Source: a virus
Virus record (IMG/VR): IMGVR_UViG_3300044645_001881
Location: 1-24,945 of that record
Length of the DNA stretch: 24,945 nt
Direction: 5' to 3' (one strand)
A model generated the notes under the pieces. That model did no database searches. It was not told the origin of the DNA and worked only from the letters and a program-made list of their open reading frames with translations. A program made the position numbers and the translations under genes. Each line of letters opens with the position of its first letter. Positions within the stretch are counted from its first letter, which is position 1. Below are positions 2,462 through 21,946 of this stretch, in pieces.

Positions 2462-2480
2462 CCGCTACCGGGGGTGAACC

Positions 2481-4888: not shown

Positions 4889-4899
4889 AGGAACCACTC

Positions 4900-5142: not shown

Positions 5143-5152
5143 AAGGTGACTG

Positions 5153-5422
5153 ATGGCCGCCCACTCATGGACATACGGCGACTGGCGGTCGCAGACGACG
5201 CAGGCCGCGAAGCGCGACCGGCTGGCGCTGCACCTCCAAGAGATCGAGGAGCGCAAAGACGCGATCAGCGCGTCCGGCGGTCAGATGTCCGCCGCGTACG
5301 AAGGGCTCGAAGCCAAGCTCGCGCGGCTTGAGCCGATGTTCGACGAACTCGACAAGCAGGTCCGCGACTCCCAGTCCGGCGGCCCGATGCTGGTGATCCG
5401 CCCGCGTCGCCGCCCATTCTGA
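5153..5422 (+). CDS. small helical protein in the gpW (head-completion) slot
   Basis: An 89-residue product; AAAGGTGA (5142-5149) gives the ribosome site. Two helices are separated by a short Gly-containing turn (HLQEIEERKDAISASGGQMS, then EGLEAKLARLEPMFDELDKQ), with a basic Arg/Pro end. The length, the position just before the portal and the helix-turn-helix hairpin recall lambda gpW, which seals the portal after packaging, but no diagnostic residue can be named. The assignment rests mainly on gene order. Confidence 0.5.
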   Translation: MAAHSWTYGDWRSQTTQAAKRDRLALHLQEIEERKDAISASGGQMSAAYEGLEAKLARLEPMFDELDKQVRDSQSGGPMLVIRPRRRPF

Positions 5423-5428
5423 GCACCC

Positions 5429-7054
5429 ATGACCAAAGCAGCCCGCAAACCCAAGCCGACGCCGCTCGCGCGTCAGGTCCAGGACGCACAGGACCGGCTC
5501 AAGCTCCACGCGCTGAACGCTCAGCTTGCGCTCGTGGAACGCTCCGGCCCCGGCGATCGGATCCCGCGCCGCAACACGCCGCCTGCGGGCGGTGGCCCGG
5601 CGTACAAGATCGTCAACGCGAAGGGCCTGTCCCAGTCCTACACGGCCACGCGCCGCGACCGGCTCAAGGGCGAGACGGCGGAGATCCTCGCCCCGGCTGA
5701 TTCGCACCTCGATCAGTATTCGCTCGACAAGCTCCGGCGCGACTCGCACCACCTCTACCGGAACAGCCCGCTCGCCCGCGCGGTGATCGGCGCGGTGAGC
5801 AACGCGATCAACGGCCCGCAGGGTCCGAACCTCTCGTTCGGCTCCGAGGACCGGGACTTCGCCCAGCAGGCCGGGGACTGGTTCTGGGCATGGGCGAACA
5901 ACGAAGACGGCCCGCAGGGCAAGTTCGACAGCCTGGGCCGGCAGACGCTCATGCAGGCCGTGCGGTCAGCCCCCGGCTCATGGCTCATTGACGGCGACTT
6001 CGCCGAGGTGCGGCTGACGGACGGATCGGTCCGGCTGTTCGAAGCGTCTGAGATCCGCTCCCCGTCCGGGCTCATGCTGACCGATGGCCGCACCGTCGCC
6101 AACGGGATCGAGTACGACCGCCGCGGCGCCCCGATGGCGATGCACGTCATGCCGTGGAAGCCCGGCCAACGCAACGGCCCGAGCATGCGCATCCCGTGGG
6201 ACGCGGTGACGCTGCTTTCCAACCCCGTCCACCGCCGACTGAACCAGACCCGCGGCGAGCCCGGACTCGCGGCACTCGCCCACTACATCGAGCTCATCGA
6301 CGACTCGATGGATTCGACGGTGCTCGCCCACCGGATGTCCACGTACGCCTCGCTGGTCCTGACGCTCAAGGACCCCGCGGCGACCCGAGCGGCGGCAATC
6401 GCCCAGACGGCCGCGATTGACGGCGGCATGGCGAACCCCTCGCCGACCGGCGCTCCGCAGGAAGTGGAATGGAACCCGGGCTCCCTCCTGACGCTCAAGG
6501 AAGGTGAGAGCGCGATGCAGGTCAAGCCCGAGCACCCGGGCGGGAACATCGAAAGCTTCCTCCGCTTCCTGATCCGGTTCGCCCTGTCGGACGTTGGCTG
6601 CCCGAGCGAGCTTGCGATCCTTGACGCCACCGAGACGAACTACCACGGCTTCAAGTCTGCCGTCGGCAACGCCTACCGCGGGTTCTCTTGGCAGCAGTAC
6701 GTGCTCTCGGAATGGCTGGTCAAGCTCACGACGTGGCGTGTCGGTCTGTGGATCCTCGACGGCTCGCTCAGCGCCCCGGACGACTGGAACAAGATCGAAT
6801 GGCGGTTCGCCGGTCCGCCGGTCATCGACCCCGTGCAAGAGATCATGGCCGCGACCCGCGCGTGGGACGGCAAGGTGAAGACCCGCACGCAGATCCTTGG
6901 CGATCTCGGGTACACCGGCAGTTACCGCGACTTCAACACGCAGCTCGCCGCCGAACAGCAGGACCTCAAAGACAAGCAGATCGACGTGAAGAACGCGGTC
7001 GGCATCAACGACCAGCCCCAGCAGACTTCCAAGCCCGCCGCACAGACGGCGTGA
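5429..7054 (+). CDS. portal protein, lambda family
   Basis: A 541-residue product that in this family forms the dodecameric ring at one capsid vertex through which DNA enters and leaves. The N-terminal region has the family hallmark SLDKLRRDSHHLYRNSPLAR (about 93-112), followed by AVIGAVSNAINGPQGPNL. A central region with GSWLIDGDFAEVRL and the later IESFLRFLIRFALSDVGCPS fits the stem and wing of lambda-type portals. The C-terminus is Gln/Lys rich and probably disordered. There is no strong ribosome site, and the start lies six bases after the preceding stop, so reinitiation is likely. Confidence 0.92.
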   Translation: MTKAARKPKPTPLARQVQDAQDRLKLHALNAQLALVERSGPGDRIPRRNTPPAGGGPAYKIVNAKGLSQSYTATRRDRLKGETAEILAPADSHLDQYSLDKLRRDSHHLYRNSPLARAVIGAVSNAINGPQGPNLSFGSEDRDFAQQAGDWFWAWANNEDGPQGKFDSLGRQTLMQAVRSAPGSWLIDGDFAEVRLTDGSVRLFEASEIRSPSGLMLTDGRTVANGIEYDRRGAPMAMHVMPWKPGQRNGPSMRIPWDAVTLLSNPVHRRLNQTRGEPGLAALAHYIELIDDSMDSTVLAHRMSTYASLVLTLKDPAATRAAAIAQTAAIDGGMANPSPTGAPQEVEWNPGSLLTLKEGESAMQVKPEHPGGNIESFLRFLIRFALSDVGCPSELAILDATETNYHGFKSAVGNAYRGFSWQQYVLSEWLVKLTTWRVGLWILDGSLSAPDDWNKIEWRFAGPPVIDPVQEIMAATRAWDGKVKTRTQILGDLGYTGSYRDFNTQLAAEQQDLKDKQIDVKNAVGINDQPQQTSKPAAQTA

Positions 7055-7079
7055 TCTTCCACACCTTCAGGAGCCTTCC
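7055..7079 (+). promoter_or_regulatory. short G-poor leader with strong Shine-Dalgarno
   Basis: A CTTCC/CACCTTC stretch ending in AGGAG (7069-7073), six bases before the ATG at 7080. It belongs to a set of similar leaders in front of structural genes. Confidence 0.5.
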
Positions 7080-7850
7080 ATGCACTCGACCGAGAATCAG
7101 CTCGACGACCTCAAGCCGCTGCGGCGGACCACGCTGCTCGCCCCGGACATCCGCGACGGGATCACCGGCGGCACGCAGTTTCAGGAGCTTCCCGCTGCGA
7201 CCACCGTCGCCGCCGGTTCGGACAACCTGACCGTCACCACGGGCACGGGTACCGAGGTGACTGGCCGCGACAGCAAAGGCCGCGCGAACTTCAAAAGCCA
7301 GGCCACCACGCCCGCCGACAACGACAACGTTCTGCTCGTCCCGGCGAACACCACGAACATCCTGAACCAAGCCGTGAGCGCCACGGCCGAATGGCGGTTC
7401 AACGCTCAGGTCACGATCAACACGATCACCGCCCTGTTCTTCTCGATCGGCCCCAACGAGAACATCACCGACGCGGACCCGACCGGAACCGCCGGCGACG
7501 GCGCGATGTTCTTCTTCTGCCCGACCGGCGCGGCAAGCGAAATGGCCGTCGATCCGGGTCTGGCAACCGCCGCGTACGCGAACTGGGCCCTCGCTCACAA
7601 GGTCGCCGGCGCGGACACCTTCGCCGCAACGAGCATCCCGGTTGTCGCGGGCCGCGAGTATTTCCTCCAGTGGGTGCTCGGCACCGATCGCAAGGTCCGC
7701 TTCTACATCGACGGCACGCTCGTCGGCATCGGCCCGGCGCTCACTGACGCCGCCGCCCTCCGCTTCATGGCGGGCCTCGAACTCACGGCGACGCCCGGCG
7801 GCCAGAAGGACTTCTCCGTTCGCGGCATCAGCGTCTTCCGTCCCTCCTAA
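7080..7850 (+). CDS. beta-rich ConA/LamG-like structural protein
   Basis: A 256-residue product with a strong AGGAG ribosome site. After a helical N-terminus (about 1-30) the chain is nearly all beta. The last 110 residues resemble a concanavalin-like jelly roll (AGREYFLQWVLGTDRKVRFY, then IDGTLVGIGPALTD and FSVRGISVFRPS), a pattern seen in LamG-type and phage surface domains. It has no signal peptide. It sits between portal and protease, where lambda-like phages normally have nothing, so it may be a head-bound surface protein such as a decoration or carbohydrate-binding protein. The exact role is not established. Confidence 0.6.
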   Translation: MHSTENQLDDLKPLRRTTLLAPDIRDGITGGTQFQELPAATTVAAGSDNLTVTTGTGTEVTGRDSKGRANFKSQATTPADNDNVLLVPANTTNILNQAVSATAEWRFNAQVTINTITALFFSIGPNENITDADPTGTAGDGAMFFFCPTGAASEMAVDPGLATAAYANWALAHKVAGADTFAATSIPVVAGREYFLQWVLGTDRKVRFYIDGTLVGIGPALTDAAALRFMAGLELTATPGGQKDFSVRGISVFRPS

Positions 7851-7915
7851 ACCATCCGCCGCCCGCGCCCCGGGCCTTCCCACCTTCACAGGCTACACCC
7901 ACCGGAATCCCCTTC
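7851..7915 (+). promoter_or_regulatory. pyrimidine-rich leader of the protease gene
   Basis: A C/T-rich spacer containing CACCTTCAC and GGAA (7902-7905) before the ATG at 7916. The ribosome site is weaker than those of neighbouring leaders. No terminator-like hairpin followed by a T-run is visible. Confidence 0.35.
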
Positions 7916-9349
7916 ATGCATCACTACATGCTCCACGCGACGGACCTCGTGCTCACGCCCGAGGGTCGCGCTACGGCAGAGCGCAATCGGGAAGCCGTCT
8001 TCAGCCAAGGATCCCGGGCGCGCGGCGGACGGCTGGCATCGTTCACGGGTCAGATCGGCGGCGTCTCCGGACGGATGCATGACCGCGAGAAGCTGACCAC
8101 GCGATTCGGTAACGTCGCGGTCCTAGACATCAACGGGGCGCTCTGCTCAGGCGACAACGACCTGATCTGCTGGATGCTCGGCGGCGTGCCGTCCCAGTGG
8201 ATCGAGGAAGACGCCAAGAGCCTCGCCGCCGATGAATCGGTCCGGTCCGTGATCGTCAGGCTCAACACGCCCGGCGGTGCCGTCGCCCGGTTCTCCGCCG
8301 TGGCTGCCGCACTCCGGGCGCTCGGTGACGCGAAGGAACTCATCGCCGTGGTGGACGACGCCGCGTATTCGATGGGCGCCGTGATCTCCGCCCTGTGCTC
8401 CAAGGTCTACGTCACCCCGTCGGGCGGCATGGGCAACATCGGCGTGATCGCGGGCCCGTTCATCGACCAGACCAAGGCCCAGCAAGCGGCCGGCGTCGAA
8501 GTCTTCTACGCCTGTGCCCCCGACGGCAAGGCCAGCGGCAACTACGGCACGGCACTCCCCGACGAGTTCCGCACGAACATGAACGCCGCGGCCCGGCGCT
8601 GGTACGAGACGTTTGCCGGGTACTTCGAGCGTCGCGGCCTGAGCATCGCGGACATCGACGGCATGAACGGCGCGGTGTACGCGGCCGAGGACGCCGTGAC
8701 GATGGGGCTTGCCGACAGCGTGGCGACGTTCGACGAAGTGATCCTCCCGCTCATCACCGGCGAGATGCCGGACCGCACCAACCAGATCCAACCGGCGGAG
8801 CCCCGTGGCAGGGTTTCGCTTTCCAACATCGCCACGAAGGAACAGACCATGAAGCTGACCGCCCCCCAGTGGGCCGGACTCACGGCGGAAGCGATCCGCG
8901 AGCACCGGCCGGAACTCCTCGAAGCCCTCGCCGCGACCGGCAAGGCCGCCGAACCCGAGCCCGCCGGGCTTGCGGAACTCGAGACGGCCTTCAAGGGTGA
9001 ATCGACGTTCATCCTCGACGTGCTCCGCGCGAAGGAAACGATGCCGCAGGCGCACGCCCGCTTCGCCGGGGTGCTCGCTGATCGCCTCACCGCCGCGAAC
9101 GCTCGCATCGCCGAGCTGGAGAAGTCCAAGCCCGCCGAGGGCAAGGGCGTCGCCACCGCGGCCCAGAAGGTCGCCGAAGTGAGCGTGGTCGATCCGGCCA
9201 AGCTCGAAGCGAGCGGCACGGTGGCCGACGCCGCCACGCCCGCCAGCAAGGAAGCCGCGATCGAGGCCATGCGGAAGGAACACCGCACGACCTACGCCCA
9301 GGCCGCGATCAAGGCCCGCGCTAAGTGGCCCGCGCTCTTCGCCGCCTGA
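7916..9349 (+). CDS. S49 capsid maturation protease fused in frame to scaffold
   Basis: A 477-residue gpC-like head protease. The S49 fold is clear: LNTPGG (116-121), the nucleophile region AAYSMGAV with Ser152, and GMGNIGVIAG (171-180). Lys205 in APDGKASG is the likely general base, matching the Ser-Lys dyad of SppA/gpC enzymes. The protease domain ends near residue 300. The rest (312-477) is Ala/Glu/Lys-rich helix with a coiled-coil segment (LTAANARIAELEKSK), as expected for a scaffold tail. In the family the enzyme processes the scaffold, itself and sometimes the portal during prohead maturation. Met5 (7928) is an alternative start. Confidence 0.92.
   Translation: MHHYMLHATDLVLTPEGRATAERNREAVFSQGSRARGGRLASFTGQIGGVSGRMHDREKLTTRFGNVAVLDINGALCSGDNDLICWMLGGVPSQWIEEDAKSLAADESVRSVIVRLNTPGGAVARFSAVAAALRALGDAKELIAVVDDAAYSMGAVISALCSKVYVTPSGGMGNIGVIAGPFIDQTKAQQAAGVEVFYACAPDGKASGNYGTALPDEFRTNMNAAARRWYETFAGYFERRGLSIADIDGMNGAVYAAEDAVTMGLADSVATFDEVILPLITGEMPDRTNQIQPAEPRGRVSLSNIATKEQTMKLTAPQWAGLTAEAIREHRPELLEALAATGKAAEPEPAGLAELETAFKGESTFILDVLRAKETMPQAHARFAGVLADRLTAANARIAELEKSKPAEGKGVATAAQKVAEVSVVDPAKLEASGTVADAATPASKEAAIEAMRKEHRTTYAQAAIKARAKWPALFAA
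8836..8841 (+). promoter_or_regulatory. internal Shine-Dalgarno for nested scaffold
   Basis: GAAGGA inside the protease gene, seven bases before an in-frame ATG at 8849. The spacing and strength equal those of true gene starts in this operon. Confidence 0.7.
8849..9349 (+). CDS. nested capsid scaffold protein, Nu3-like
   Basis: In-frame internal translation of the protease gene from Met312 gives a 166-residue protein (MKLTAPQWAGLTAEAIREHR at its start). The predicted product is almost entirely helical with an acidic/Ala-rich middle and a basic C-terminus, the usual make-up of scaffolding proteins that guide capsid assembly and are then degraded. The layout copies lambda, where Nu3 is translated from inside gene C. 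The internal ribosome site at 8836-8841 is the key evidence. Separate production is inferred, not shown. Confidence 0.75.
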   Translation: MKLTAPQWAGLTAEAIREHRPELLEALAATGKAAEPEPAGLAELETAFKGESTFILDVLRAKETMPQAHARFAGVLADRLTAANARIAELEKSKPAEGKGVATAAQKVAEVSVVDPAKLEASGTVADAATPASKEAAIEAMRKEHRTTYAQAAIKARAKWPALFAA

Positions 9350-9412
9350 TTCCTCCCGTCCGCACTTCACGCACTTCCACCACTTCACCCAACTTCAGAA
9401 GGACAGACTCAC
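9350..9412 (+). promoter_or_regulatory. CACTTC-repeat leader of the cement gene
   Basis: CACTTC occurs at 9363, 9372 and 9381 (nine-base period), and AACTTC at 9391. AGAAGGA (9397-9403) follows, nine bases before the ATG at 9413. The stretch is nearly free of G before the ribosome site and should be unstructured. Confidence 0.55.
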
Positions 9413-9799
9413 ATGGCAACTGGCATCAACAACATCGACGGCGGCCCGATCACCGTGTACAACGGGACGGGCTCGACGATCGCGATGGGCGCTCGTCTCA
9501 CCCTCGCCGTTCCGACCGCGATCGGCGCGGCTCAGTTCGGCGTCACCCTGACCGGCAACGCCGCGATCTGCGACGCCGTGGCGCTCGAACCGATCGCCGA
9601 CGGCGAGAACGGCGCGGCCAAGCTCCGCAACGACACCGGCTTCCTCCAGATGATCGCTGCGGCCGCCGTGACCTTCGGCGCGACCGTGACGGCGGCGGCG
9701 TCCGGCAAGGTTTCGACCGGCGGCGGCACGACCGAGGGCATCGCGTTCTCGGCTGCCGGCGCTGACGGCGACCTGATCCTCGTTCGCCCGGCCCTCTAA
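9413..9799 (+). CDS. capsid decoration (cement) protein
   Basis: A 128-residue, Ala/Gly/Thr-rich, all-beta product directly before the major capsid gene, the position of lambda gpD. Features shared with head-decoration proteins and the DUF2190-type cement family are GTGSTIAMGARLTL near the start, an IADGENGAAKL turn, and the closing TEGIAFSAAGADGDLILVRP. Such proteins bind as trimers on the expanded shell and stabilise it against DNA pressure. The CACTTC leader and strong ribosome site suit a protein needed in hundreds of copies. The family is judged from pattern and position. Confidence 0.7.
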   Translation: MATGINNIDGGPITVYNGTGSTIAMGARLTLAVPTAIGAAQFGVTLTGNAAICDAVALEPIADGENGAAKLRNDTGFLQMIAAAAVTFGATVTAAASGKVSTGGGTTEGIAFSAAGADGDLILVRPAL

Positions 9800-9866
9800 G
9801 CGGCTCGGCTGATCTCCTCTTCACACACCTTCCAGCACTTCAACACCACTTCCCCAAGGAGTCTTC
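9800..9866 (+). promoter_or_regulatory. CACTTC leader of the major capsid gene
   Basis: CACTTC at 9836 and 9847 within an A/C/T-rich run, then AAGGAG (9856-9861), five bases before the ATG at 9867. This is the strongest ribosome site in the window, as expected for the capsid gene. Confidence 0.55.
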
Positions 9867-10868
9867 ATGTACGCTTCAACCGCGGGCCGTCGGCCCCGTC
9901 AGGACCTCAACTCCGCCCTTGCGAACTTCGTGCAGGGCGGACACGTCGCCACGCAGATCCTGCCCGTCATGGGCACGGCCGAGCAGGCGTTCCAGTACGC
10001 CAAGATCAACAACGGCGACGCGATGCGGATCATCAAGACCCGCCGCGCTCCCAAGGCCAAGGCCACTCGCGTCGAAACCGCCTACGACTACGCCTCCGGC
10101 TACTGCGAAGAGCGGGCGGCCGAGGAAGCCGTTGACGTGACCGTCGCGGCTCGCGTCGGCGGCAACTTCGAGGCGTCCGAGGTTGCGGCCAACACCGCCG
10201 CCGCGACCGTCGCCAACGACCTTGAGAACGACGTGTTCTCGACGATCTTCAACGAGACGAACTACCCGGTCAGCGGGACGACCGGCCTCACCCCCGGCGC
10301 CCTCTGGACCGACGCGGCGTCGTGCGATCCCGTGGCTGACGTGAACGCGGTCAAGGCGTTCCTCGAAGCCCAGGGCACCCCCGGAAACGCGATGGTCATC
10401 AACAAGCTCCGGGCCCGCACGCTCTGGAACTGCGACCGGATCAAGAACCGCCTGACGCAGATGTACGGCCGCGTCATCCCCGGGGAATGCGACGTGGCGG
10501 CGCTCAGCCAGATCTTCGAACTCGAAGTCATCGTCGCCGGCGCGATGAAGAACACGGCCAACCCCGGCGCGACGAACGCCTTCGACTACATCGCCAGCTC
10601 GAACTACTGCGGCGTCTTCCGCAAGAGCACCGATATGGCCCTCCGCGACCCGCGTCTGGGCAACATCTTCGTGTGGACGAACGCCTACGCCAAGAGCAAC
10701 GCGGACATCCTCCCGGTCCCGGCGCAGATGCCGAGCAACATCATGGAGTTCGCCCGCGTCGAGACGTACGACGAGCCCGCGATCTCCTCCGAGGTCGTCA
10801 GCGTGAAGACCTTCACCGACGAGCTGCTCATCACCTCGAACGCCTTCAAGCTCATCAAGATCGCCTAA
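9867..10868 (+). CDS. major capsid protein, gpE-like HK97 fold
   Basis: A 333-residue product, close to the 341 of lambda gpE. The N-terminal arm precedes an E-loop-like region (KINNGDAMRIIKTRRAPKAK). The spine and P-domain helix (ANDLENDVFSTIFNETNYP) and the A-domain section (WTDAASCDPVADVNAVKAFL, then GNAMVINKLRARTLWN and the later SQIFELEVIVAGA) follow the pattern of E-type coats. Position after the cement gene and the strong leader agree. No N-terminal delta domain is present, consistent with the separate scaffold. Confidence 0.88.
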   Translation: MYASTAGRRPRQDLNSALANFVQGGHVATQILPVMGTAEQAFQYAKINNGDAMRIIKTRRAPKAKATRVETAYDYASGYCEERAAEEAVDVTVAARVGGNFEASEVAANTAAATVANDLENDVFSTIFNETNYPVSGTTGLTPGALWTDAASCDPVADVNAVKAFLEAQGTPGNAMVINKLRARTLWNCDRIKNRLTQMYGRVIPGECDVAALSQIFELEVIVAGAMKNTANPGATNAFDYIASSNYCGVFRKSTDMALRDPRLGNIFVWTNAYAKSNADILPVPAQMPSNIMEFARVETYDEPAISSEVVSVKTFTDELLITSNAFKLIKIA

Positions 10869-10947
10869 GCGGTCGGCGGCACCTTTCGGGGGCGCGACGG
10901 GCAAGGGCACGCGCGCCTCTCTTCCACCACATTCCGGAGAAACCTTC
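10869..10947 (+). promoter_or_regulatory. spacer and leader between capsid and secreted protein
   Basis: The first half is GC-rich (GGCGGCACC, GGGGGCGCG) without a convincing terminator hairpin. The second half is G-poor (CTCTTCCACCACATTCC) and ends in GGAGA (10936-10940), seven bases before the ATG at 10948. Confidence 0.35.
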
Positions 10948-11589
10948 ATGCGGCATCCGCGTTTCGTCGGACTGCTGATCGCCACGATCACGGTCCTTAC
11001 GTTCGGCGTGCTCATGGCGCAGACGGCAAGCCTCGAGTCTTCGGGGCAGCTTCTGTACCTGTCCAGCAACAGCACGCAGGCGTCCTTCTCGCTGACCGAG
11101 GGCCGGGCCGCGATGGCGTCCCCGCCGGCGTCCCCGCTCAACTTCTACTCGATGGGCCCGGCGTCGGGCAAACGCTACCGGGGCGTGACGATCACGTTCT
11201 TCGGTGCGGGCAGCGCGACGCAGACGTACGACTACAAAATCTGGTCCATTCGTCGCGGCTTGTCGGCCCCTGGCGGCGTGTCGGTCGATTACGAGAAGAT
11301 CCTGTACTGCTCGGGAACGGCCACGCTGGGCACGCAAACCGGCGCGGTGTCGAACGGCGGCATCCGCACGACGGACCTGATCGCCGACACGCTAACGGTC
11401 ACGGCGTCCGCGTACGCCACGAAGACCGTCTCGGCCTACGGCGGGGTTGCTCCCTTCGTGTTCTCGCCCGGCTCCAACGGCATTGCCCGCCTGTACGTGC
11501 CCGAACTGGGCAACTCCAGCGAGATCATCGTCGAGTTCGACATGACCGGCGCGACTTCGGGCAACTGCCTCATCGAAAAAGACGTTTGA
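10948..11589 (+). CDS. beta-rich protein with Sec-type signal peptide
   Basis: A 213-residue product. Residues 1-27 look like a signal peptide: basic start (MRHPR), a hydrophobic core (FVGLLIATITVLTFGVLM) and a small-residue cleavage zone (AQTA). The mature part is Thr/Ser/Gly-rich and all beta, with ITFFGAGSATQTYDYKIWSI in the middle and a last strand pair ending NSSEIIVEFDMTGATSGNCL. Virion proteins encoded just after the capsid often end in a similar way, but they do not carry signal peptides. It may be exported to the periplasm or surface, perhaps acting with the SGNH protein that follows. Function unknown. Confidence 0.6.
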   Translation: MRHPRFVGLLIATITVLTFGVLMAQTASLESSGQLLYLSSNSTQASFSLTEGRAAMASPPASPLNFYSMGPASGKRYRGVTITFFGAGSATQTYDYKIWSIRRGLSAPGGVSVDYEKILYCSGTATLGTQTGAVSNGGIRTTDLIADTLTVTASAYATKTVSAYGGVAPFVFSPGSNGIARLYVPELGNSSEIIVEFDMTGATSGNCLIEKDV

Positions 11590-11621
11590 TCTGACCCACT
11601 ACACACCCTTCGGAGCCTTCC
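11590..11621 (+). promoter_or_regulatory. leader of the SGNH hydrolase gene
   Basis: CACTACACACCCTTC followed by GGAG (11612-11615), six bases before the ATG at 11622. It is of the same type as the other structural-gene leaders. Confidence 0.45.
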
Positions 11622-13970
11622 ATGCGTCGATGGATCTCTCTTGCGTTGGCGGTTGTCCTTTCGGTGCTTACCGCGGCACCGGCGGCGGCGCAGCGGAACT
11701 CGCTGGCCGACGTGGTTCGCGCGTCTCAGTCCAAGCGGGTCGTCATCGACGGCATCGGCGACTCGACCTTCGGGCGTGAGGGCGCGGGCTGGGGTCAGGG
11801 CTTCGTCGATGCGATGACCGGCACTTCCCAGTCCGCGGGCATCCTGATGCCCCCCAACCAGGGCGCGGGCAACAACCTGACGCACAGCATGGCGTTCGTC
11901 CGCCGACGGCTTAACCAGTCAACGCTCGTCGGCCCGGTCGTTTCGTCGGATCTGGGGCTTCCGGGCTACCCGCAGGGCTGGAAGCAGTACGGCGTGACGG
12001 TTCCGATGATCGGGATTGACTCGCCCCTCACGACGACGATCACGGCTGACATCGCGTCGGCTGGTGCTACCTCGATGACGGTTGCCGATCGCGGGCTGCT
12101 TCAGGACCCGAACGGCACGTACACCGCGTACGGCAAGATCAACAACGAGATCATCTCGTGGACGGATATCACCGGCACGGGCGCGGGCACGGTGACCATC
12201 GCCCGCGGCACGCTCGGGACTACCGCCGCATCGCTCCACTCCAGCGGCTCGACGATCCGCCGGCTCATGGTGTGGGAGGGTCCGCAGTCCGCCGTTCTCG
12301 GCGTCGCCACGCTGACCGGGGCCATCGCGAGCGCCGTCTCTACCGCCGACATTGTGGTGGACTCCACGGTCGGGTTCACGGCGTCCGGCGCTCTGCGGCT
12401 GCCGTCCGGCGAGGTCGTGACGTACACGTCGATCACCTCGACGAACTTCGTCGGCATCGTTCGCAACACGATCCCGGCCGCAGGAACGGCCGCCGCCCAC
12501 TCGATCGGCGAGCGCGTCGTGCAGTGCTACACGCCGTCCGGGTTCGCGGGCATGATGGGGCCAGACCACCCCTTCGGCATCAACACGGCGATGACGAACG
12601 TCCTCTTTACCAAGAGCATGTTTGCCACGTCGCTCTCGCAGGCCACGATGCAGGGCGAGCTCTACACGCAGGCGACGTGGGTCAACACCGACAGCTCGTT
12701 CACGAACCTTGCCACGGGCACGGCGACGGTCGTCACCGGCTCGGCTCTTGGAACGCTCAACAAGATCATCAACACGCTCGCGGCCCCGGGCTCTGACCGG
12801 GCATCGGTGACGCTGAACTTCGGCACCAATCGCGGGTCCACGTACTACTCGGGGATCAACGGAGGCGCGGCCCTCCTCTTCCACGGCGTCTTCGGCACTG
12901 ACCGGCCGGTTGGGTTCGTGCAGACGATGGGCACCTCGCGCGGCGGGTTCACGCTGAACACGTTCCACCGCACGATGAACTACTACGACACGGTGAACAG
13001 CATCAACGAGCTGCGAGCCGGGATGGTCGAGCGGTACAAGGTCTATCGGTCCTGCGGCGACGTGGATGTCGGCGGCAACGGCGGGGCGGCGCTCGTTCAC
13101 TACACGGTCTTCGGCCACAATGAAACGGGCGGCCAGGGCTACGCGGGCGTCTACCAGCCGGGCTATCCGTGGACGGAATCGCCGCTCGCGTCGGTCGGGC
13201 TGCTTTCGAACGCTCCGGGCGTCGCGGGCACCACGATCGATGTCGATAACGGGTCGTCGCTCCGCAGCGCCAAGGGCTCGCTCTACATCTTCGACGGGGT
13301 CAGCGACTACGAGTACGTGACGTACGAGACGGCGACGCTCATCAGCGGGACAAACTACCGCCTGAACAACTGCGCCCGTGGCCAGTTCGGCACCGAGCCC
13401 CTCGACCTGGCGGTCGGGATGGAAGTGCGGCAGGGGTTCCTTCAGGTCAACCCCAAGGGCTTCGCGTCTGACATCCTCTTCGACTACCTCTGGCGGCGTG
13501 GCTGCTGGGTGTCGGCGGGCGGGTCGCTTGACGACTTCTACTACGTTTATATCCGGCCGATCCCGACGAGCGCGAGCCCTTCGACGGTCGCGGACGACTC
13601 GGCGGCGAGCGGCGATGCTCAACGCGAGTTCAAGCTCCGGGCGTACACCAACGCGATCGAGACGTACTGCGGCTCGCTGCCGGGGTTTATTGTCCTGGAC
13701 CTCGCAGACATCATCGGCGGCGGCGAAGCGGTGACGAACGACGACGGCGCAGGCTCGGCCGACAACGTGCATCACACCCGCGCGGCGTATCGCAAGTACG
13801 CACAGCGGGCGGTTCAGCACTTCGCGTACGGCTCGGGCGCTGGCCCGTACCCGGTCACGGGGCTCGACGGCATCCAGCCGCGTTCGGGCATCCGCGGCCG
13901 TCCCCGTCGCGTGGTCAAGGGCACCAAACGCAAGCGTCGGGCGGTCGCCCGGGGGAGGAACGGTCGATGA
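11622..13970 (+). CDS. secreted SGNH/GDSL-like hydrolase with three beta-module repeats
   Basis: A 782-residue product. Residues 1-23 are a textbook signal peptide (basic MRRW, hydrophobic core, APAAA cleavage region). SGNH blocks are visible: IGDST with Ser48 as nucleophile, GHNE (498-501) as the block III-like oxyanion Asn, and Asp714-Asn-Val-His717 as the block V DxxH. Three related beta modules are inserted (about 138-214, 228-302, 533-605), each with an E(I/V)(I/V)xxTxI-type strand and an R-G/N-x4-GT turn. The C-terminus is very basic (residues 757-782). SGNH enzymes remove acyl groups from polysaccharides or lipids, so a surface-glycan deacylase is plausible. The stop overlaps the next gene (ATGA). 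Confidence 0.65.
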   Translation: MRRWISLALAVVLSVLTAAPAAAQRNSLADVVRASQSKRVVIDGIGDSTFGREGAGWGQGFVDAMTGTSQSAGILMPPNQGAGNNLTHSMAFVRRRLNQSTLVGPVVSSDLGLPGYPQGWKQYGVTVPMIGIDSPLTTTITADIASAGATSMTVADRGLLQDPNGTYTAYGKINNEIISWTDITGTGAGTVTIARGTLGTTAASLHSSGSTIRRLMVWEGPQSAVLGVATLTGAIASAVSTADIVVDSTVGFTASGALRLPSGEVVTYTSITSTNFVGIVRNTIPAAGTAAAHSIGERVVQCYTPSGFAGMMGPDHPFGINTAMTNVLFTKSMFATSLSQATMQGELYTQATWVNTDSSFTNLATGTATVVTGSALGTLNKIINTLAAPGSDRASVTLNFGTNRGSTYYSGINGGAALLFHGVFGTDRPVGFVQTMGTSRGGFTLNTFHRTMNYYDTVNSINELRAGMVERYKVYRSCGDVDVGGNGGAALVHYTVFGHNETGGQGYAGVYQPGYPWTESPLASVGLLSNAPGVAGTTIDVDNGSSLRSAKGSLYIFDGVSDYEYVTYETATLISGTNYRLNNCARGQFGTEPLDLAVGMEVRQGFLQVNPKGFASDILFDYLWRRGCWVSAGGSLDDFYYVYIRPIPTSASPSTVADDSAASGDAQREFKLRAYTNAIETYCGSLPGFIVLDLADIIGGGEAVTNDDGAGSADNVHHTRAAYRKYAQRAVQHFAYGSGAGPYPVTGLDGIQPRSGIRGRPRRVVKGTKRKRRAVARGRNGR

Positions 13971-14251
13971 TCTACACACTGGCGGCGGAAGTCGAAACCT
14001 TGCTCAGCCCGTCGCTCCTCAAGGACTGGGGAACCGCCGGGATCATCATCGCAGTCCTGGTCTTCGGAGCGATCTACATCCTCCCCAGACTTGTCATCAT
14101 CGGCAAGGACTTCAACCAAGCGTCCGAGCGGCTTGCCTCTGTGCTCGGCCGCGCTGAGGTGGTGGTGAGGCGAGCCGAGGAGATGTACCCGGCACCCAAG
14201 ATCAAGACGAAGTACCAAGACGGCGACCCGCGAGGGGTTACCGAAAGCTGA
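13967..14251 (+). CDS. single-TM membrane protein, holin or spanin-like candidate
   Basis: A 94-residue product. Residues about 22-45 form one hydrophobic helix (WGTAGIIIAVLVFGAIYILP). It is followed by a cytoplasm-style amphipathic helix (GKDFNQASERLASVLGRAEV) and a charged tail. It is translationally coupled to the preceding gene (ATGA, 13967-13970) and lies directly before a better holin candidate. Single-TM proteins with coiled-coil tails occur as holins, antiholins or inner-membrane spanins. Topology and partner are inferred. Confidence 0.55.
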   Translation: MIYTLAAEVETLLSPSLLKDWGTAGIIIAVLVFGAIYILPRLVIIGKDFNQASERLASVLGRAEVVVRRAEEMYPAPKIKTKYQDGDPRGVTES

Positions 14252-14262
14252 AGGGATCACCC

Positions 14263-14586
14263 ATGAGCGCAATTACCGCCATCATCGCCAGTCCGGACGT
14301 GCGGTCCACAGTCCGAAAGGTGATCCTGATCGGCGCGGCGTACGTCTGTGCGAAGATCGGGATGAACGCCGAATCGACCGCCGCCGTGATGGGGCTCGTC
14401 GCGTCGGTCCTCCAAGCCTGGTCGCACTACGACGACGGCAAGATCGGAGCCAAGGCCGCGAAGGAAGTAGCCGTCGCGTTCAGCCTCCCGGCACAGCTTC
14501 AGCAGGAAGCCAAGCCCGCGCCGACCGAGCCTCAATCCACCAGCCGCATCGGTCCCGCCGACACCACGGAGAAGCCGGGAACGTGA
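14263..14586 (+). CDS. putative holin, Pam3-gp28-like
   Basis: A 107-residue product. AAGGGA (14251-14256) lies six bases before the ATG. The pattern STVRKVILIGAAYVCAKIGM, then NAESTAAVMGLVASVLQAWS, gives two short hydrophobic helices separated by a polar turn with a Trp near the end, which resembles the Pam3-gp28 type of small holin. The Pro/Glu/Thr-rich C-terminus (about 75-107) is probably disordered. It would permeabilise the inner membrane at the time of lysis. It is coupled by GTGA to the hydrolase candidate that follows, as expected for a holin-endolysin pair. Confidence 0.55.
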   Translation: MSAITAIIASPDVRSTVRKVILIGAAYVCAKIGMNAESTAAVMGLVASVLQAWSHYDDGKIGAKAAKEVAVAFSLPAQLQQEAKPAPTEPQSTSRIGPADTTEKPGT

Positions 14587-15443
14587 AACGCACGCTCTAC
14601 CTCTCGCTCTCGGCCGGCGGCGAGCACACCGCCGCACTGGGCAGGCTCGACACCCGCTTCGCGTCGTACCGCCGGGCGATCGTGGTCGGTGAGCACTTCG
14701 TCTGCACGGACAAGGTTCAGGGGCCTGATCGGATCCTGTCCGTCGATGAGAGCCTCCTCGCGGCCGAGCTTGCCCGGCTCGCCCCGCGCGTCAGGCCCGG
14801 CGACGTGCTCGTCGCCAACATGGAGGACGGGCACCCGTACTACGGGAAGGACTACGCGGAGGCGTGCGGGACCTTCGCCAAGGCCGTCCGATCGTTCGAG
14901 ACACCCAAGGGAGTACCGATCGGCTCGGGCTGCTACGGCGTGTTCAAGGCGAACCAGAGCGCAACCGGAAACGTGGTCTACCACTCGAAGCCCCCGTACC
15001 GCTCGCCGATGGTGGACTTTGACCGGCCGGCGGACATGCTCACACGCGAGGATGCGTACATCGTCGGCGAGTTCTACCTAGCCAACGTCTCGACCACCGA
15101 CGGCGCCACGCCCCAGCCGGGCCGCGTCAGGCTCTCGGATCAGCAGGCATGGATCCGCCGGGACCTGCAGCGCCTGCGGTACTACGCGAACGGTCGCCCG
15201 GTGCTCGCGATGGTGAACCCGCTCTACAGCGGGCCGCACAGCCGCAAGGGGCAACCGCTCACCGCCCGCGATGTCCGCCTGCTCTGCGATGAGATTGCGT
15301 CAACTCCGACGGCCATCCCGGTTCTGTGGATGCACTTGGACAAGGACAACTCGGACGAAGCGTCGGTCATCCAGGCCGTGACGCTCTGGACCCGTGAATG
15401 GTCGATCGCACTCGGACGGCTGCCAACGGCCGCCGCACTTTGA
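14583..15443 (+). CDS. TIM-barrel-like protein, candidate glycoside hydrolase/endolysin
   Basis: A 286-residue product with a GTG start overlapping the holin stop. Alternating strands and helices suggest a (beta/alpha)8 barrel. DVLVANMEDGHPYYGKDY holds adjacent acids Glu81-Asp82 at a strand end, followed by the strand VPIGSGCYGVF, then YIVGEFYLAN, RPVLAMVNPLYSG and IPVLWMHLDKDN. Paired acids after a strand and the late RPV...W pattern recall hyaluronidase-like and other retaining glycosidases. No known endolysin family is recognised and no signal peptide is seen, so export through the adjacent holin would be needed. The assignment to lysis comes mainly from gene order. Confidence 0.45.
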   Translation: MKRTLYLSLSAGGEHTAALGRLDTRFASYRRAIVVGEHFVCTDKVQGPDRILSVDESLLAAELARLAPRVRPGDVLVANMEDGHPYYGKDYAEACGTFAKAVRSFETPKGVPIGSGCYGVFKANQSATGNVVYHSKPPYRSPMVDFDRPADMLTREDAYIVGEFYLANVSTTDGATPQPGRVRLSDQQAWIRRDLQRLRYYANGRPVLAMVNPLYSGPHSRKGQPLTARDVRLLCDEIASTPTAIPVLWMHLDKDNSDEASVIQAVTLWTREWSIALGRLPTAAAL

Positions 15444-15454
15444 AAGGGACCCCG

Positions 15455-16066
15455 ATGAACGCACACACCCGCCGCCAACCCTTGGAGCTCGGCTTCGGCT
15501 GGCTCGTCTACCCCGTGCTCGGCATCATCGCCGTGATCCTCGCGCTCAGCCTCTTCGGCTGCTCGGGCTCGCAGGTCGGGCCGTCATGGGAGAAGGACCC
15601 CACCGGCGCGGTCAAGTCCCGGAGCACGGACGCTCCCAACCGCGTCAGCCTGTCCAAGGCGGGCGAGACGTGGGACACCGAAAGCTCGGTGCCCGGCTCT
15701 TACGTCGAGATGTTCGACGAGAACGGAAACGCCGTGGCGTCGCTTGGCCCCAAGTCCCGCGTGATGATCTTCCCCTTCTTCGGGAAGGAAGCCAAGATCG
15801 CCAGCGACACCGACGTGACTTTCACCGTGAAGAAGGCGATCATGCCGGACGGCACCCAGCTCGAAGGGTTCACCTTCTCGACGCTGGCCTCGCCCGTCGT
15901 CAAGGCTCAGAACGAAGTCTGGGACAGGCTCGGCCCGATCCTGATCGCGCGTGATGCACGGGCGGCGGAAACCCTGCTCTCGGACAACGAAGCCGTCGCC
16001 AAGATCGTTGAAGCCGTCGGGCCGGGCGTGATCGACGTGCTGAAGCTCATCGCCGGGGGGTTCTAA
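15455..16066 (+). CDS. lipoprotein, possible outer-membrane lysis factor
   Basis: A 203-residue product. The ATG at 15455 follows AAGGGA (15444-15449). Residues about 16-35 are hydrophobic and end in a lipobox (LFGC, Cys36), so the mature protein should be lipid-anchored at Cys36. The rest is soluble: a beta-rich part (SYVEMFDENGNAVASLGPKS onward) and a helical C-terminal part (EAVAKIVEAVGPGVIDVLKL). As the last gene of the membrane-active cluster it could play an outer-membrane spanin role, but it is much longer than typical o-spanins. The alternative is a surface lipoprotein affecting superinfection. Confidence 0.55.
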   Translation: MNAHTRRQPLELGFGWLVYPVLGIIAVILALSLFGCSGSQVGPSWEKDPTGAVKSRSTDAPNRVSLSKAGETWDTESSVPGSYVEMFDENGNAVASLGPKSRVMIFPFFGKEAKIASDTDVTFTVKKAIMPDGTQLEGFTFSTLASPVVKAQNEVWDRLGPILIARDARAAETLLSDNEAVAKIVEAVGPGVIDVLKLIAGGF

Positions 16067-16434
16067 TGACGGCCCTCCCGGATGTCCGGAGCATGATGGG
16101 CGACGTGATCGGCCTGCTCGGTCGATCCATCACCTACCGCCGCATCGTGCCCGGCGCGTACAACACGACGACCCTCGCCCAAGCCATCACCGCGACGGAC
16201 TGGACGGTCAACGCCGTCCGCAACCCGTCAGCCACCCGCACCGGCGGGCCCAAAGACGCTCTCTCACACGAATTCATCATCCGCGCGACGGACCTCAACA
16301 CAGCCGCGGGCTCCACGTATACCCCGGACGCGAACGACCGCATCGTTGACGACGCAACCGTCTTCAAGATCACGCGGGCCGAACGCTCGGCCGACGGGCT
16401 CGCGTGGGTCATCTCCGCCCAAACCCTGAAGTGA
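16066..16434 (+). CDS. neck / head-tail connector protein
   Basis: A 122-residue product whose start overlaps the previous stop (TAATG). The N-terminal helix (LPDVRSMMGDVIGLLG) is followed by a beta barrel-like domain with SITYRRIVPGAYNTTT. The closing pattern IVDDATVFKITRAERSADGL is common in head-tail joining (stopper) proteins, which carry a damage-prone loop and a terminal strand. The position before tail-terminator and tube genes fits. It would close the portal and attach the tail. No specific family name is claimed. Confidence 0.55.
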   Translation: MTALPDVRSMMGDVIGLLGRSITYRRIVPGAYNTTTLAQAITATDWTVNAVRNPSATRTGGPKDALSHEFIIRATDLNTAAGSTYTPDANDRIVDDATVFKITRAERSADGLAWVISAQTLK

Positions 16435-16438
16435 ACCC

Positions 16439-16939
16439 ATGCCAGTATCCGGCACCGTACATATCGACCTTGTGATCGTCCTGCGGATGTTCGCCGCGCG
16501 TCTGGCGACGGTCGCAAACGTGACGATGCTCCACCTCGGGCTCGCGCCGGCCGAGTCCGGCGACAGCACGCAGGTTGTCCGCGTCCAGAACATGACGCTC
16601 GACTGGGCAGACGGCCGGTCGATGGACGGCATGGAGGAATCGGCAACGCTCGGCATGGAACTGACGTTCATCGGCACCAAGGACGCGGAGGGCGGCGGGC
16701 TGAACACCGTCGCGATGATGTTCAACAGGATCAAACAGGCCCTTGACCGCGAACCGCTGACCGACGCAACGACCTCGCACCGGGCCGACGTGCAGATCGG
16801 AAACCTCACGATCATCGACGACGCGACGGCCGAGACTGACGGCGGCGGCGATCACGGCGCTCTGCGGTGCTCCTGCACGCTCCGGGCCCGCGTCATTCGG
16901 ACCAACTCGACCGCTCTCGAGACTTCACCGCCGGTCTGA
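16439..16939 (+). CDS. probable tail terminator / tail completion protein
   Basis: A 166-residue product, four bases after the preceding stop. The order connector, this gene, tail tube is that of many siphoviruses. The fold appears alpha/beta, with a helix (NTVAMMFNRIKQALDREPLT) and a last strand with alternating residues (GALRCSCTLRARVIRTN), typical of proteins that cap the tube. The N-terminal segment (GTVHIDLVIVLRMFAARLAT) is a mixed strand and helix. Called from gene order and general shape only. Confidence 0.5.
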   Translation: MPVSGTVHIDLVIVLRMFAARLATVANVTMLHLGLAPAESGDSTQVVRVQNMTLDWADGRSMDGMEESATLGMELTFIGTKDAEGGGLNTVAMMFNRIKQALDREPLTDATTSHRADVQIGNLTIIDDATAETDGGGDHGALRCSCTLRARVIRTNSTALETSPPV

Positions 16940-16974
16940 CCCGGCATCTTCACCACCTTCGAGGACTACAACAC
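16940..16974 (+). promoter_or_regulatory. leader of the tail tube gene
   Basis: CTTCACCACCTTC followed by GAGGA (16961-16965), nine bases before the ATG at 16975. It matches the leader type seen before cement and capsid genes. Confidence 0.45.
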
Positions 16975-17460
16975 ATGGCCGCGATCAATGCCAACAACGA
17001 GCAGCAGATTTCCTTTGCGCAGGACGGGGCAACCGTCGAAGTGACCATCGGCGCCGACACCGTGACGCTCCTGCGCCCGGTGCCCGGCGGCGGCGGGATC
17101 TCTTGGACCTACGGCGGGCGCGAATCCCGGACCGACTCGGATCAGGGCGTGCTTCAGCCGCCGCTGATGGGCAACAACCGCCCGACGATGCTGACCGGCA
17201 AGTTTCGCTTTACCTCGGACACCACCGCTCAGGCGATCGAGGCGATCCTGCTCACGGAGGGGTCTGGCGGGCTGGTTCAGGAATACACCTGGGTCATCCG
17301 CAACCCGACGACCCGCGGCGGCGCGGCGGGCATCATCCACACCTTCGCAACGTGCTCGCTGGTCCCCGGGTCGCTCAAGGTGACGGCGGGCGAGCAGTTC
17401 GACGACATCGAGTTCGAGCTCTACTGCCGCGCGACCAAGCCGACGAAGGCCACGTACTGA
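16975..17460 (+). CDS. major tail (tube) protein
   Basis: A 161-residue product with its own leader and strong GAGGA, as expected for an abundant protein. It is predominantly beta: ISFAQDGATVEVTIGADTVT at the start, and a last strand pair (EQFDDIEFELYCRATKP) typical of tube proteins, which polymerise as hexameric rings around the tape measure. The loop region TYGGRESRTDSDQGVLQPPL could be the inter-ring beta hairpin. The longer in-frame start at 16867 lies inside the previous gene and is rejected. The following gene is the assembly-chaperone candidate, which supports the call. Confidence 0.72.
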   Translation: MAAINANNEQQISFAQDGATVEVTIGADTVTLLRPVPGGGGISWTYGGRESRTDSDQGVLQPPLMGNNRPTMLTGKFRFTSDTTAQAIEAILLTEGSGGLVQEYTWVIRNPTTRGGAAGIIHTFATCSLVPGSLKVTAGEQFDDIEFELYCRATKPTKATY

Positions 17461-17476
17461 ACACCGGAAGGAATCC

Positions 17477-18142
17477 ATGAAGAGTTGGTCCAAGCAAGTC
17501 ATCACGCTGCCCCCGCTTCACGAAGGCGAGCCGACGCGATCCATCACCCTGCGCCCGCTGTGGGCCATCGAAACCGACGCGATCGACGAGGCGTATCCGC
17601 GCCCCGTCCCGCCGATGGTAAAGAACCCCGCGGCCGGAAGCCTCGCCCCGAAGGTGGCCGACGAAGCAGATCCCACGCACCAGCGAGAACTCCGCAAGTG
17701 GCTGAAGTGGGTGAAGCGGGCTCAGGTGTCCGTTTCGATGCAAGCCACCGAGGAATGGACCGGCGACAAGGTGAAGGCGCTGGCAGAAAGGGCAGCGAAG
17801 TCGTTCACAAACGATGAGATCGAGCTGCTCTGGGTTCGGCTGCGAGAGCTTTCCACTGGCGAGATGATCCGGAACGCCATGACCATCATCATCTCGCCGA
17901 GCGCCGACGGCGGCGAGTCCGACAAGGGCGATTCAGTTCAGGTCCCGGAGGCGTATGCGATCACCGAGGATGGATTGATGATGCGGGCGGCAGAGCGGTT
18001 CGGGCAGAACCCCGCGACGTGGCCGAAGACGCTCAGCCCCGAAGAGCGGGCCCTGACTCTCGCAAACGAGTTGGTCCGCCGCAAGGAAGAGAACGAGCGA
18101 ATGGACGCGATCCGCGCGGCCTTGGGGATGATGGGTGTATGA
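17477..18142 (+). CDS. tail assembly chaperone-like protein
   Basis: A 221-residue product; GGAAGGA (17466-17472) precedes the ATG. It begins with a short beta part (SITLRPLWAIETDAID) and is then mostly helical, with a long charged region (LRKWLKWVKRAQVSVSMQAT) and a helical end (NELVRRKEENERMDAIRAAL). Location between tube and tape measure is the classical slot of lambda gpG/gpGT, which coats the tape measure during assembly. No slippery heptamer or overlapping T-type extension was found, so only the short form is supported. The stop overlaps the next gene (ATGA). Confidence 0.55.
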   Translation: MKSWSKQVITLPPLHEGEPTRSITLRPLWAIETDAIDEAYPRPVPPMVKNPAAGSLAPKVADEADPTHQRELRKWLKWVKRAQVSVSMQATEEWTGDKVKALAERAAKSFTNDEIELLWVRLRELSTGEMIRNAMTIIISPSADGGESDKGDSVQVPEAYAITEDGLMMRAAERFGQNPATWPKTLSPEERALTLANELVRRKEENERMDAIRAALGMMGV

Positions 18143-18879
18143 CCGTCTCAATGACCGTGAACACCAGACCACTGAAGGCGGCACTGGCCAAGGCTCGCCA
18201 AGCCGTTCCGGCGGTGCGCAAGGAAACGCTTATCGCCATCGCCAACGTCTACGGAAAGATCGTCATGGAGACGGCTCCGATCGACACCGGAAGGTTCATC
18301 GCCGGAGAAGCCCAGGGACTGAATGAAGCCGGGGCCGGGCCGTTCCCGGTCCAGAAGGTCAAGGCGGCGGGCTACTCGCAGAAGCGGCGCGACGAGATCA
18401 CGCGGATGCTTGAGGCTCAGCTTGAATGGTGGCGATACCAGAAGAACCGACTCGAAGCAAGAGGCGTCCGATCAATCGCTACGGGCAAGCAGTCGAAGGA
18501 CTACACGCTGGCAGTCAAGAACTATCAGCGGTGCATCAAGTATCTGGCGGAGTGGCGAGCCTCCGAGGGCACCGGAGCGGTCATCGGGCTCCAGTTCTGG
18601 CAGCGTTTGAAAGAGGCCAAGCGTCGGAAAGACCAGAACCCGGACATGGTGCTGACTCGCGCGTACTCAAGGGTTTACGGAGGCAAGGGCCGACTCATCC
18701 AGTACAACGGTCGGGAGGTGCTTTCGCTTCGCAACCTCGAACCCCATGCCTACATCGTGGAGCACAACACGCGGGTTCGGGCCAACGCACTTAGGGCTAT
18801 GGCGGGAACGGTAAAAAAGGTTTCTCAGGCGTATACAAAGCAGATGGCAGCTGCTTCGGGATTGAGCGTCACGGGCTAG
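18139..18879 (+). CDS. HK97 gp10-like tail completion protein with a long insertion
   Basis: A 246-residue product. The hallmark TAPIDTGRFIAGEA (about 45-60) is the core motif of HK97 gp10-type proteins, and the end of that fold reappears near residue 210 (HAYIVEHNTRVRANALRAMA). Between them lie about 150 residues of basic, helical sequence (EAQLEWWRYQKNRLEARGVR onward), so the protein is much longer than the roughly 110-150 of ordinary members. The gene normally precedes the tube gene, whereas here it follows the chaperone. Base composition falls from about here on. The upstream in-frame start at 18019 lies within the chaperone gene and is rejected. Confidence 0.6.
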   Translation: MTVSMTVNTRPLKAALAKARQAVPAVRKETLIAIANVYGKIVMETAPIDTGRFIAGEAQGLNEAGAGPFPVQKVKAAGYSQKRRDEITRMLEAQLEWWRYQKNRLEARGVRSIATGKQSKDYTLAVKNYQRCIKYLAEWRASEGTGAVIGLQFWQRLKEAKRRKDQNPDMVLTRAYSRVYGGKGRLIQYNGREVLSLRNLEPHAYIVEHNTRVRANALRAMAGTVKKVSQAYTKQMAAASGLSVTG

Positions 18880-19309
18880 GCGTCAAAGTTGGGGATTTGA
18901 GTTCGATCCTCTGTCTCTCCAAATCGCGTTCAATCAGCGTGGTTGCACCGCGAACGATCGCCACAAGGACCCATGCGATGAGTGCCGCCCAAAGCGCTCC
19001 CGACAGGACGCCGTTTCTGATGGTCTTCCGCAGGCTAGATCGCGGCATGGTGTCAGCAAGAACAGACATCTGCCTTTCAAGCGATTGAGACAGGTTGTTC
19101 AAGTAAATCGAAGTGCGCTCGCTCGCTTCAGTGCTGCGATCAACAGCGGCGATCAAGTCAGGGTCAGCAGGAACAAAATGGTTCACGTCCCAGACCGTCC
19201 AACCTTGCGACTTCAGCTCCGAGGCGGCCTGCTCCGGAGTGTCGGCATAGATCGTCTGCCAGTGAGCTTTCGTCTGGCGGTTTGAAATCTCGGCGATCCA
19301 CTTTTTCAC
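18869..19309 (-). CDS. minus-strand moron: membrane-anchored protein of unknown function
   Basis: A 146-residue product starting at GTG 19309, six bases after GGAGGG (19316-19321 on this strand). The longer ATG start at 19366 lacks such a site. An N-terminal soluble domain (KKWIAEISNRQTKAHWQTIY, then ADTPEQAASELKSQGWTVWD) is followed by a helical linker, one TM helix (VLSGALWAALIAWVLVAIV) and a charged tail. It is the only reverse gene in the window, converges on and overlaps the gp10-like gene by 11 bases, and may have its own promoter. These are features of morons, which often serve lysogenic conversion or superinfection exclusion. Function unknown. Confidence 0.65.
   Translation of the reverse strand: MKKWIAEISNRQTKAHWQTIYADTPEQAASELKSQGWTVWDVNHFVPADPDLIAAVDRSTEASERTSIYLNNLSQSLERQMSVLADTMPRSSLRKTIRNGVLSGALWAALIAWVLVAIVRGATTLIERDLERQRIELKSPTLTPSP
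18897..18921 (+). other. tRNA 3'-end-like sequence (T-arm plus acceptor strand)
   Basis: TTGAG, then loop TTCGATC (fits TTCRANY), then CTCTG, TCTCTCC and A. Three of five stem pairs are canonical, one is G-T and one is mismatched. There is no matching 5' half and no D-arm, so this is not a tRNA gene. It may be a trace of a tRNA-targeted attachment site, or chance. Confidence 0.2.
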
Positions 19310-19337
19310 GAGTATCCCTCCGGCCCATCCCCGATCG

Positions 19338-19366
19338 AGCGTAACCGACCCGGCTGCCAAAGCCAA
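19338..19366 (-). promoter_or_regulatory. possible sigma-70-type promoter for the moron
   Basis: On the minus strand TTGGCT (four of six to TTGACA) and TACGCT (three of six to TATAAT) are separated by exactly 17 bases. A start near 19331 would leave a leader of about 20 bases containing the GGAGGG ribosome site. The match is weak and the host consensus is unknown. Confidence 0.25.
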
Positions 19367-19380
19367 GGGAAATCGTCCAC

Positions 19381-20481: not shown

Positions 20482-20547
20482 CCCGGCGATCCCGGTGCTG
20501 GCCGGATTCCTCTACCCCTCACTTCTTCGACTACGGAAACACGCGCG

Positions 20548-21938: not shown

Positions 21939-21946
21939 GCCACACC

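Follow-up and report, generated by a model that had tools for sequence, protein, structure and literature searches.

The two-gene locus and its surroundings

The window analysed here, a stretch of 24,945 nucleotides, forms part of the IMG/VR virus record IMGVR_UViG_3300044645_001881. Downstream of genes for a GpA-type terminase, a portal, an S49 protease, a decoration-like protein and a phrog_1005 major capsid protein, two adjacent genes encode a small beta-sandwich-like protein (the beta protein) and a large SGNH-like protein, each with a predicted Sec signal at its N-terminus (Table 1). An earlier note on this DNA had drawn attention to the second gene, describing it as a secreted SGNH-like hydrolase of 782 residues lying between capsid and tail genes. 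The reading frame is open as described. The placement is correct on the capsid side; on the other side, however, a membrane/lysis-like cassette comes first, and the connector and tail genes follow it. No promoter-like site was seen around the two genes, which lie inside the late operon.

The downstream cassette is a mosaic (window 13967–16066; L006:9977–11765; L015:6789–8546, where L-numbers denote related loci). Its genes are 98–99% identical to those of the sister phage L002. The protein with one transmembrane (TM) segment and a coil resembles that of L004, and the lipoprotein-like protein resembles those of L006 (73%) and L015 (76%). The 286-residue protein had no family match in family searches and is unrelated to the 231–302-residue family found in the same slot, which makes this a candidate endolysin slot occupied by two families. 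Farther downstream in the window, a glycine-rich tail-fibre-like protein (22405–23739) lies between two similar proteins of ~152 residues (21944–22408 and 23743–24198) that seem to have arisen by duplication. In two otherwise different phages, calcineurin-like phosphoesterase-like proteins (L024:7709–8575, from the L002 record, and L004:8001–8864) sit downstream of tail or cassette genes.

Table 1. Features of the two-gene locus and of the adjoining cassette (positions in the window)
Feature	Positions	Strand	Basis or remark
Allelic divergence island, exactly the beta and SGNH-like genes	10951–13965	.	Flanks compared with L002
Beta protein gene, 213 aa, small beta-sandwich-like partner with N-terminal signal peptide	10948–11589	+	Open reading frame; 85% to L002
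Beta gene signal-peptide segment MRHPRFVGLLIATITVLTFGVL, 66 nt	10948–11013	+	Absent from L002; same ribosome-binding site
SGNH-like hydrolase gene, 782 aa	11622–13970	+	Open from ATG 11622 to stop 13970
Predicted Sec signal peptide MRRWISLALAVVLSVLTAAPAAA, cleavage before Gln24	11622–11690	+	Rule-based scan and alignment
Ser48 codon, block I (GDST)	11763–11765	+	Invariant in five homologues
Inserted beta domain copy 1, aa ~131–217 (..NEIISW..ARGTLGT..)	12012–12272	+	Only in signal-bearing SGNH forms (window, L015)
Inserted beta domain copy 2, aa ~221–303	12282–12530	+	Repeat of copy 1; phrog_2885 match
Asn500 codon, block III (GHNE)	13119–13121	+	Invariant in five homologues; GHN[E/D] across homologues
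Inserted beta domain copy 3, aa ~520–606	13179–13439	+	Pfam PF23666 Rcc01698_C match
Asp714 to His717 codons, block V (DxxH; DNVHH)	13761–13772	+	Invariant in five homologues
Protein with one TM segment plus coil, 94 aa	13967–14251	+	ATG overlaps SGNH-like gene stop (ATGA)
Holin-like candidate, 107 aa	14263–14586	+	Inferred from position and small size; L015 counterpart has two TM segments
286-aa protein, possible endolysin	14583–15443	+	Slot of 231–302-aa enzyme-like family in L004/L006/L015
Lipoprotein-like protein, 203 aa, conserved GC	15455–16066	+	L015 form has canonical lipobox (VLAGC)

An SGNH-type signature split by tail-type domains

A simple gene caller chose the internal TTG at 11664 as the start of the SGNH-like gene; we favour the ATG at 11622, because a Shine–Dalgarno sequence (GGAG, 11612–11615) lies 6 nt 5' of it and the other signal-bearing loci support it. 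Ser48, Asn500, Asp714 and His717, the residues proposed in the earlier note, were placed correctly, and all four are invariant in the five homologues that we found. These homologues, with identities down to 30%, all keep the ordered GDS..GxN..DxxH signature, and no all-invariant, ordered signature arose in 100,000 shuffles of the invariant residues. Gly441 (SxG) is the candidate for the block II oxyanion glycine; it is invariant, as are many other glycines. Neither the full-length protein nor an insert-free core matched a Pfam SGNH/GDSL profile, contrary to our expectation for the core, and a PDB profile search gave no match with the inserts removed or retained. We therefore call the protein SGNH-like on the strength of a signature that stays invariant at 30% identity, and limit the name to this because the curated SGNH/GDSL profiles do not match. 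As a prediction from sequence, ‘secreted SGNH-like hydrolase’ is well supported by the catalytic signature and the Sec-type signal; the searches with SGNH HMMs and PDB profiles gave no confirmation of the fold. The protein is probably an SGNH-like, carbohydrate-cutting enzyme.

Copy 2 of the inserted beta domains matches the phrog_2885 baseplate wedge family (E 6.7e-5, aa 244–285), copy 3 exceeds the cut-off for Pfam PF23666 (Rcc01698_C; 37.6 bits against 27), and domains homologous to copy 3 match phage tail families. An AlphaFold2 model of the L002 homologue had a mean pLDDT of 35.8, with core values below 50, and was unusable for the fold of the core. Foldseek searches with segments of this model matched phage tailspike depolymerases and a phage capsid chain; the probability was 1.0 for the two best matches, yet the E-values were just 0.009–0.03. 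Most likely, the confident parts of the model, which are the inserted beta domains, underlie these matches. Tail-type structural domains, one of the marks by which tailspikes and receptor-binding proteins are recognized, are thus present as inserts. Because the inserts match phage tail, tailspike and capsid-surface proteins, a role in adsorption, on the virion, is at least as likely for this family. The model of the beta protein (pLDDT 61.6, pTM 0.66) consists mostly of strands and had no match below E 0.001 among PDB structures.

Signal-bearing SGNH-like forms end in a long Arg/Lys-rich tail (RGRPRRV.., window aa 754–782, 13881–13967) that is much shorter in signal-less forms. Part of the sequence encoding this tail also contains the ribosome-binding site for the gene that follows; a conserved C-terminal RGR(N)G(R) was considered as a functional motif and dropped because of this overlap.

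A sister phage with a swapped, signal-less pair

The sister phage L002 (39 kb) is ~98% identical to the window over 17.6 kb (97.9% at 678–10950 and 98.9% at 13966–21330). Between these flanks, the beta proteins share 85% and the SGNH-like proteins 35% of their residues, against about 98–100% for neighbouring genes. Divergence concentrated in two genes between ~98% flanks fits the expectation for a host-range or surface locus, and such allelic diversity at an otherwise conserved locus is another mark of tailspikes. Intact frames, matching flanks and the existence of independent signal-bearing loci argue against an assembly chimera. Elsewhere in the conserved part, a 128-residue decoration-like protein (phrog_673, 9413–9799) is only 84% identical to that of L002 amid neighbours at 98–100%; this unusual variability suggests that it is surface-exposed on the capsid.

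In L002, neither the beta gene nor the SGNH-like gene carries a signal. The signal peptide that had been proposed for the SGNH-like protein (MRRWISLALAVVLSVLTAAPAAA followed by Q) combines a basic n-region with a hydrophobic core and an AxA site in our rule-based scan, and the prediction gains support from its recurrence on L015 and L034. Predicted cleavage would leave a protein beginning QRNSL, which aligns with (M)ARNTL, the native N-terminus of the homologues that lack a signal. Two observations absent from the earlier note extend this picture: the preceding gene also bears a signal, and the sister phage has an allele without one. The L002 beta gene lacks the first 22 codons of the window gene: L002 reads ..ccggagaacacttc ATG GCG CAG ACG, and in the window the additional segment lies between the common upstream region and ATGGCGCAGACG, a clean, 66-nt in-frame insert directly behind the ribosome-binding site common to both phages. 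The predicted mature beta protein, cleaved before Gln25 and starting QTASLESS..., aligns with the natural L002 start MAQTGNLESS.... We considered a mis-called start, with the window gene beginning at the internal MAQT as in L002, and rejected it because the ribosome-binding site in front of the insert is the one that L002 uses, and because L015 and L034 show the same arrangement. Signals were predicted by a crude rule, not SignalP, combined with comparison between loci; the rule fires on 10 of the 219 called genes of five contigs, including at least one false positive (a terminase); among all open start codons, it fires on 3%.

Signals on both genes or on neither

Besides L002, homologues of the SGNH-like protein were found by IMG/VR scans in L004, L006 and L015/L014, and a scan with the beta protein as query added L034 and L035. 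L004 encodes a 1121/1146-residue internal-virion-like protein upstream; L006 is T7-like, with a phrog_267 capsid; and L015 and L014, independent assemblies that are 99.99% identical, are represented by a 45.7-kb contig that carries a 124-bp terminal repeat, encodes a phage-type RNA polymerase and has a phage-integrase match among its proteins. The search of related phages for the same secreted gene, which had been proposed as a check, thus returned a signal-bearing SGNH-like homologue in L015. By sequence, the window protein had no match in viral contigs, INPHARED phages or the PDB, two scans of genome contigs were likewise negative, and the family, known from a few environmental contigs, had no member in the annotated phage and bacterial collections searched.

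Across seven pair loci with unrelated capsid types, both genes carry a signal in the window, L015 and L034, and neither does in L002, L004, L006 and L035, where the L035 partner (830 residues, upstream of the beta gene) was assigned by position and weak motifs only. Seven loci make a small sample: perfect concordance of this kind has a chance of ~1 in 35 if the kinship of the loci is ignored. A tree of mature beta proteins, with signals removed, requires at least two changes of signal state. Moreover, the window beta protein is far closer to its signal-less L002 counterpart than to those of signal-bearing L015 and L034 (40–48%), whereas its SGNH-like partner is nearest to that of signal-bearing L015 (43%, with L002 more distant). 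The beta signal therefore follows the partner rather than the ancestry of the beta protein, as expected if both proteins must share a compartment. Recurrence on the distant L015 and L034, always in common with the beta neighbour, indicates a genuine signal rather than a fluke. No signal is present in most SGNH-like relatives (L002, L004 and L006), so the default role of the family must work without Sec export.

Two further loci vary the theme. At L034:6569–7684, next to the signal-bearing beta protein, the enzyme slot holds a right-handed beta-helix protein that scores above the cut-off for Pfam PF13229 and carries the signal peptide MIRALFSALLLVVFGSCASPAAA followed by Q; the contig end cuts this gene. 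At L035:3481–5973, the 830-residue protein upstream of the signal-less beta protein has weak SGNH-like motifs (SNSRG.., DGVSHLTSEG) and an Arg-rich C-terminal tail, as in the window protein.

Discussion

In the usual view, tailed phages assemble their adsorption enzymes in the cytoplasm and carry them on the particle. Our comparison suggests that some phages export an enzyme of adsorption type, together with its partner, from the infected cell rather than incorporating the two directly into the particle. The explanation that we favour, to which we give a probability of roughly 0.55, is that the two genes form one swappable host-surface module whose products, in some alleles, are exported by Sec as a pair. 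The module (10948–11589 and 11622–13970) would combine a beta-sandwich-like partner with an SGNH-like esterase or deacylase, active on a carbohydrate ester. Alleles without signals would yield cytoplasmic proteins, most likely destined for the virion as a spike for adsorption or with depolymerase activity. In alleles of the window, L015 and L034 types, cleavable Sec signals on both partners would yield mature N-termini resembling the signal-less forms; the pair would be exported late in infection, and the partners could meet and form a complex outside the cytoplasm. There, the enzyme might deacylate the cell-envelope or capsule polysaccharide of the producing cell. Alternatively, it could be released at lysis, either free or able to attach to virions. 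A role at carbohydrate surfaces is our best guess by analogy, because SGNH and pectin-lyase-like beta-helix folds dominate capsule-specificity predictions for Klebsiella prophages. A point against this reading is that, in a diderm host, export to the periplasm would leave the enzyme still having to reach surface glycans. More tentatively, and with less confidence than in the module itself, we propose that gain or loss of Sec signals on both genes at once may convert a virion part into a secreted enzyme, which could destroy receptors in the manner of a neuraminidase or clear a path.

A rival possibility, which we regard as unlikely, is that the pair forms an ordinary adsorption spike of the virion, at the tail or on the head, in all alleles, with the hydrophobic N-termini serving as docking peptides or uncleaved anchors. 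The tail-type inserted domains and the absence of signals from most relatives are consistent with such a spike, as is gene order: the pair adjoins capsid or connector genes, and in L035 it lies directly 5' of a tubular-tail gene. There is also a precedent in the head fibre of the gene transfer agent RcGTA, which docks a hydrophobic N-terminus (IALGLGLGL) into a jellyroll base pentamer (PMC7296036). Against it, six proteins carry basic n-regions followed by hydrophobic cores, and three enzyme partners have AxA-type sites followed by Q. The segments come in pairs, one on each protein, and stop near the point at which homologues without a signal start, and L002, with a capsid protein 98% identical to that of the window, does without them. 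Spike proteins would be expected to be synthesized in the cytoplasm without an export signal, as in L002, L004 and L006; the window pair has predicted signals.

The earlier note had proposed that the enzyme may deacylate surface glycans of the infected cell or lysogen, for example to alter receptors or prevent re-adsorption. As a receptor-destroying or lysogenic-conversion enzyme in this strict sense, we consider the protein a rather improbable candidate. The predicted signals on enzyme and partner would suit such a function, SGNH deacetylases acting on phage receptors are known from E. coli phage G7C according to a citation in PMC13123978, and Phage_integrase matches in protein sets G005 and G001/G002 suggest temperate relatives. 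However, the genes sit within the late operon and lack a promoter-like site of their own, which speaks against their expression in a lysogen; the enzyme would also have to reach surface glycans; and closely related phages manage with signal-less alleles.

That the pair instead belongs to the downstream membrane cassette and helps to break the envelope, with signal-bearing forms leaving by Sec and signal-less forms through the holin, in the manner of SAR/Sec and canonical endolysins, is very unlikely: the cassette does follow the pair, with an overlapping or abutting start codon, in the window, L002, L004, L006 and L015, and no other lysis domain appears among the families listed for the G005 (25 of 34), G001 and G002 protein sets, but in L035 a tubular-tail gene comes straight after the pair and the membrane cassette is missing, tail-type domains and beta-helix swapping are unexpected for lysis proteins, and the allele swap ends exactly at the nearly identical cassette, which fits a change of host range rather than of lysis.

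If a swappable module exported in some alleles is the correct reading, adsorption enzymes could be put to work outside the cell. The two near-identical phages, distinguished chiefly by export marks on an enzyme and its partner, would then constitute a natural experiment, and two alleles in one background would allow a direct test of whether phages secrete depolymerases or receptor-destroying enzymes. We found no precedent for exported virion enzymes in the literature that we searched, and the nearest known systems each share only part of the arrangement.

SGNH receptor-binding enzymes of phages, including G7C gp63.1, Klebsiella prophage fibres (PMC13123978) and Acinetobacter fibres (PMC11058221), resemble the present family in their SGNH-type signature, their late genes, a locus that varies between near-identical phages and a beta-helix protein that alternates in the slot. 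In Klebsiella prophages, most predicted capsule-specificity proteins have either an SGNH or a pectin-lyase-like beta-helix fold, and SGNH tail fibres of these prophages have been reported to be functional esterases (PMC13123978). The present family differs in a core that is split by two or three tail-type beta domains and has no SGNH HMM match, and in having alleles in which both enzyme and partner carry Sec signals; tblastn of the family against annotated phages found no similarity. Pfam PF23666 (Rcc01698_C) and PHROG families 2885, 1101, 11439 and 4406 match the inserted beta domains alone, not the SGNH-like core.

The RcGTA head spikes, composed of a jellyroll base (Rcc01079) and a head fibre (Rcc01080), likewise combine a small beta-sandwich with a larger, polysaccharide-interacting protein (PMC7296036). 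We found no sequence relation between these proteins and the window pair. To our knowledge, no signal-switching alleles of RcGTA head spikes have been described. The closest parallel to such switching comes from Sec/SAR-type and holin-dependent endolysins (PMC7312051, phage HP1), in which the same class of protein occurs with and without export signals. In contrast to these lysis enzymes, the window has an adsorption-type enzyme accompanied by a partner protein, and the two switch together.
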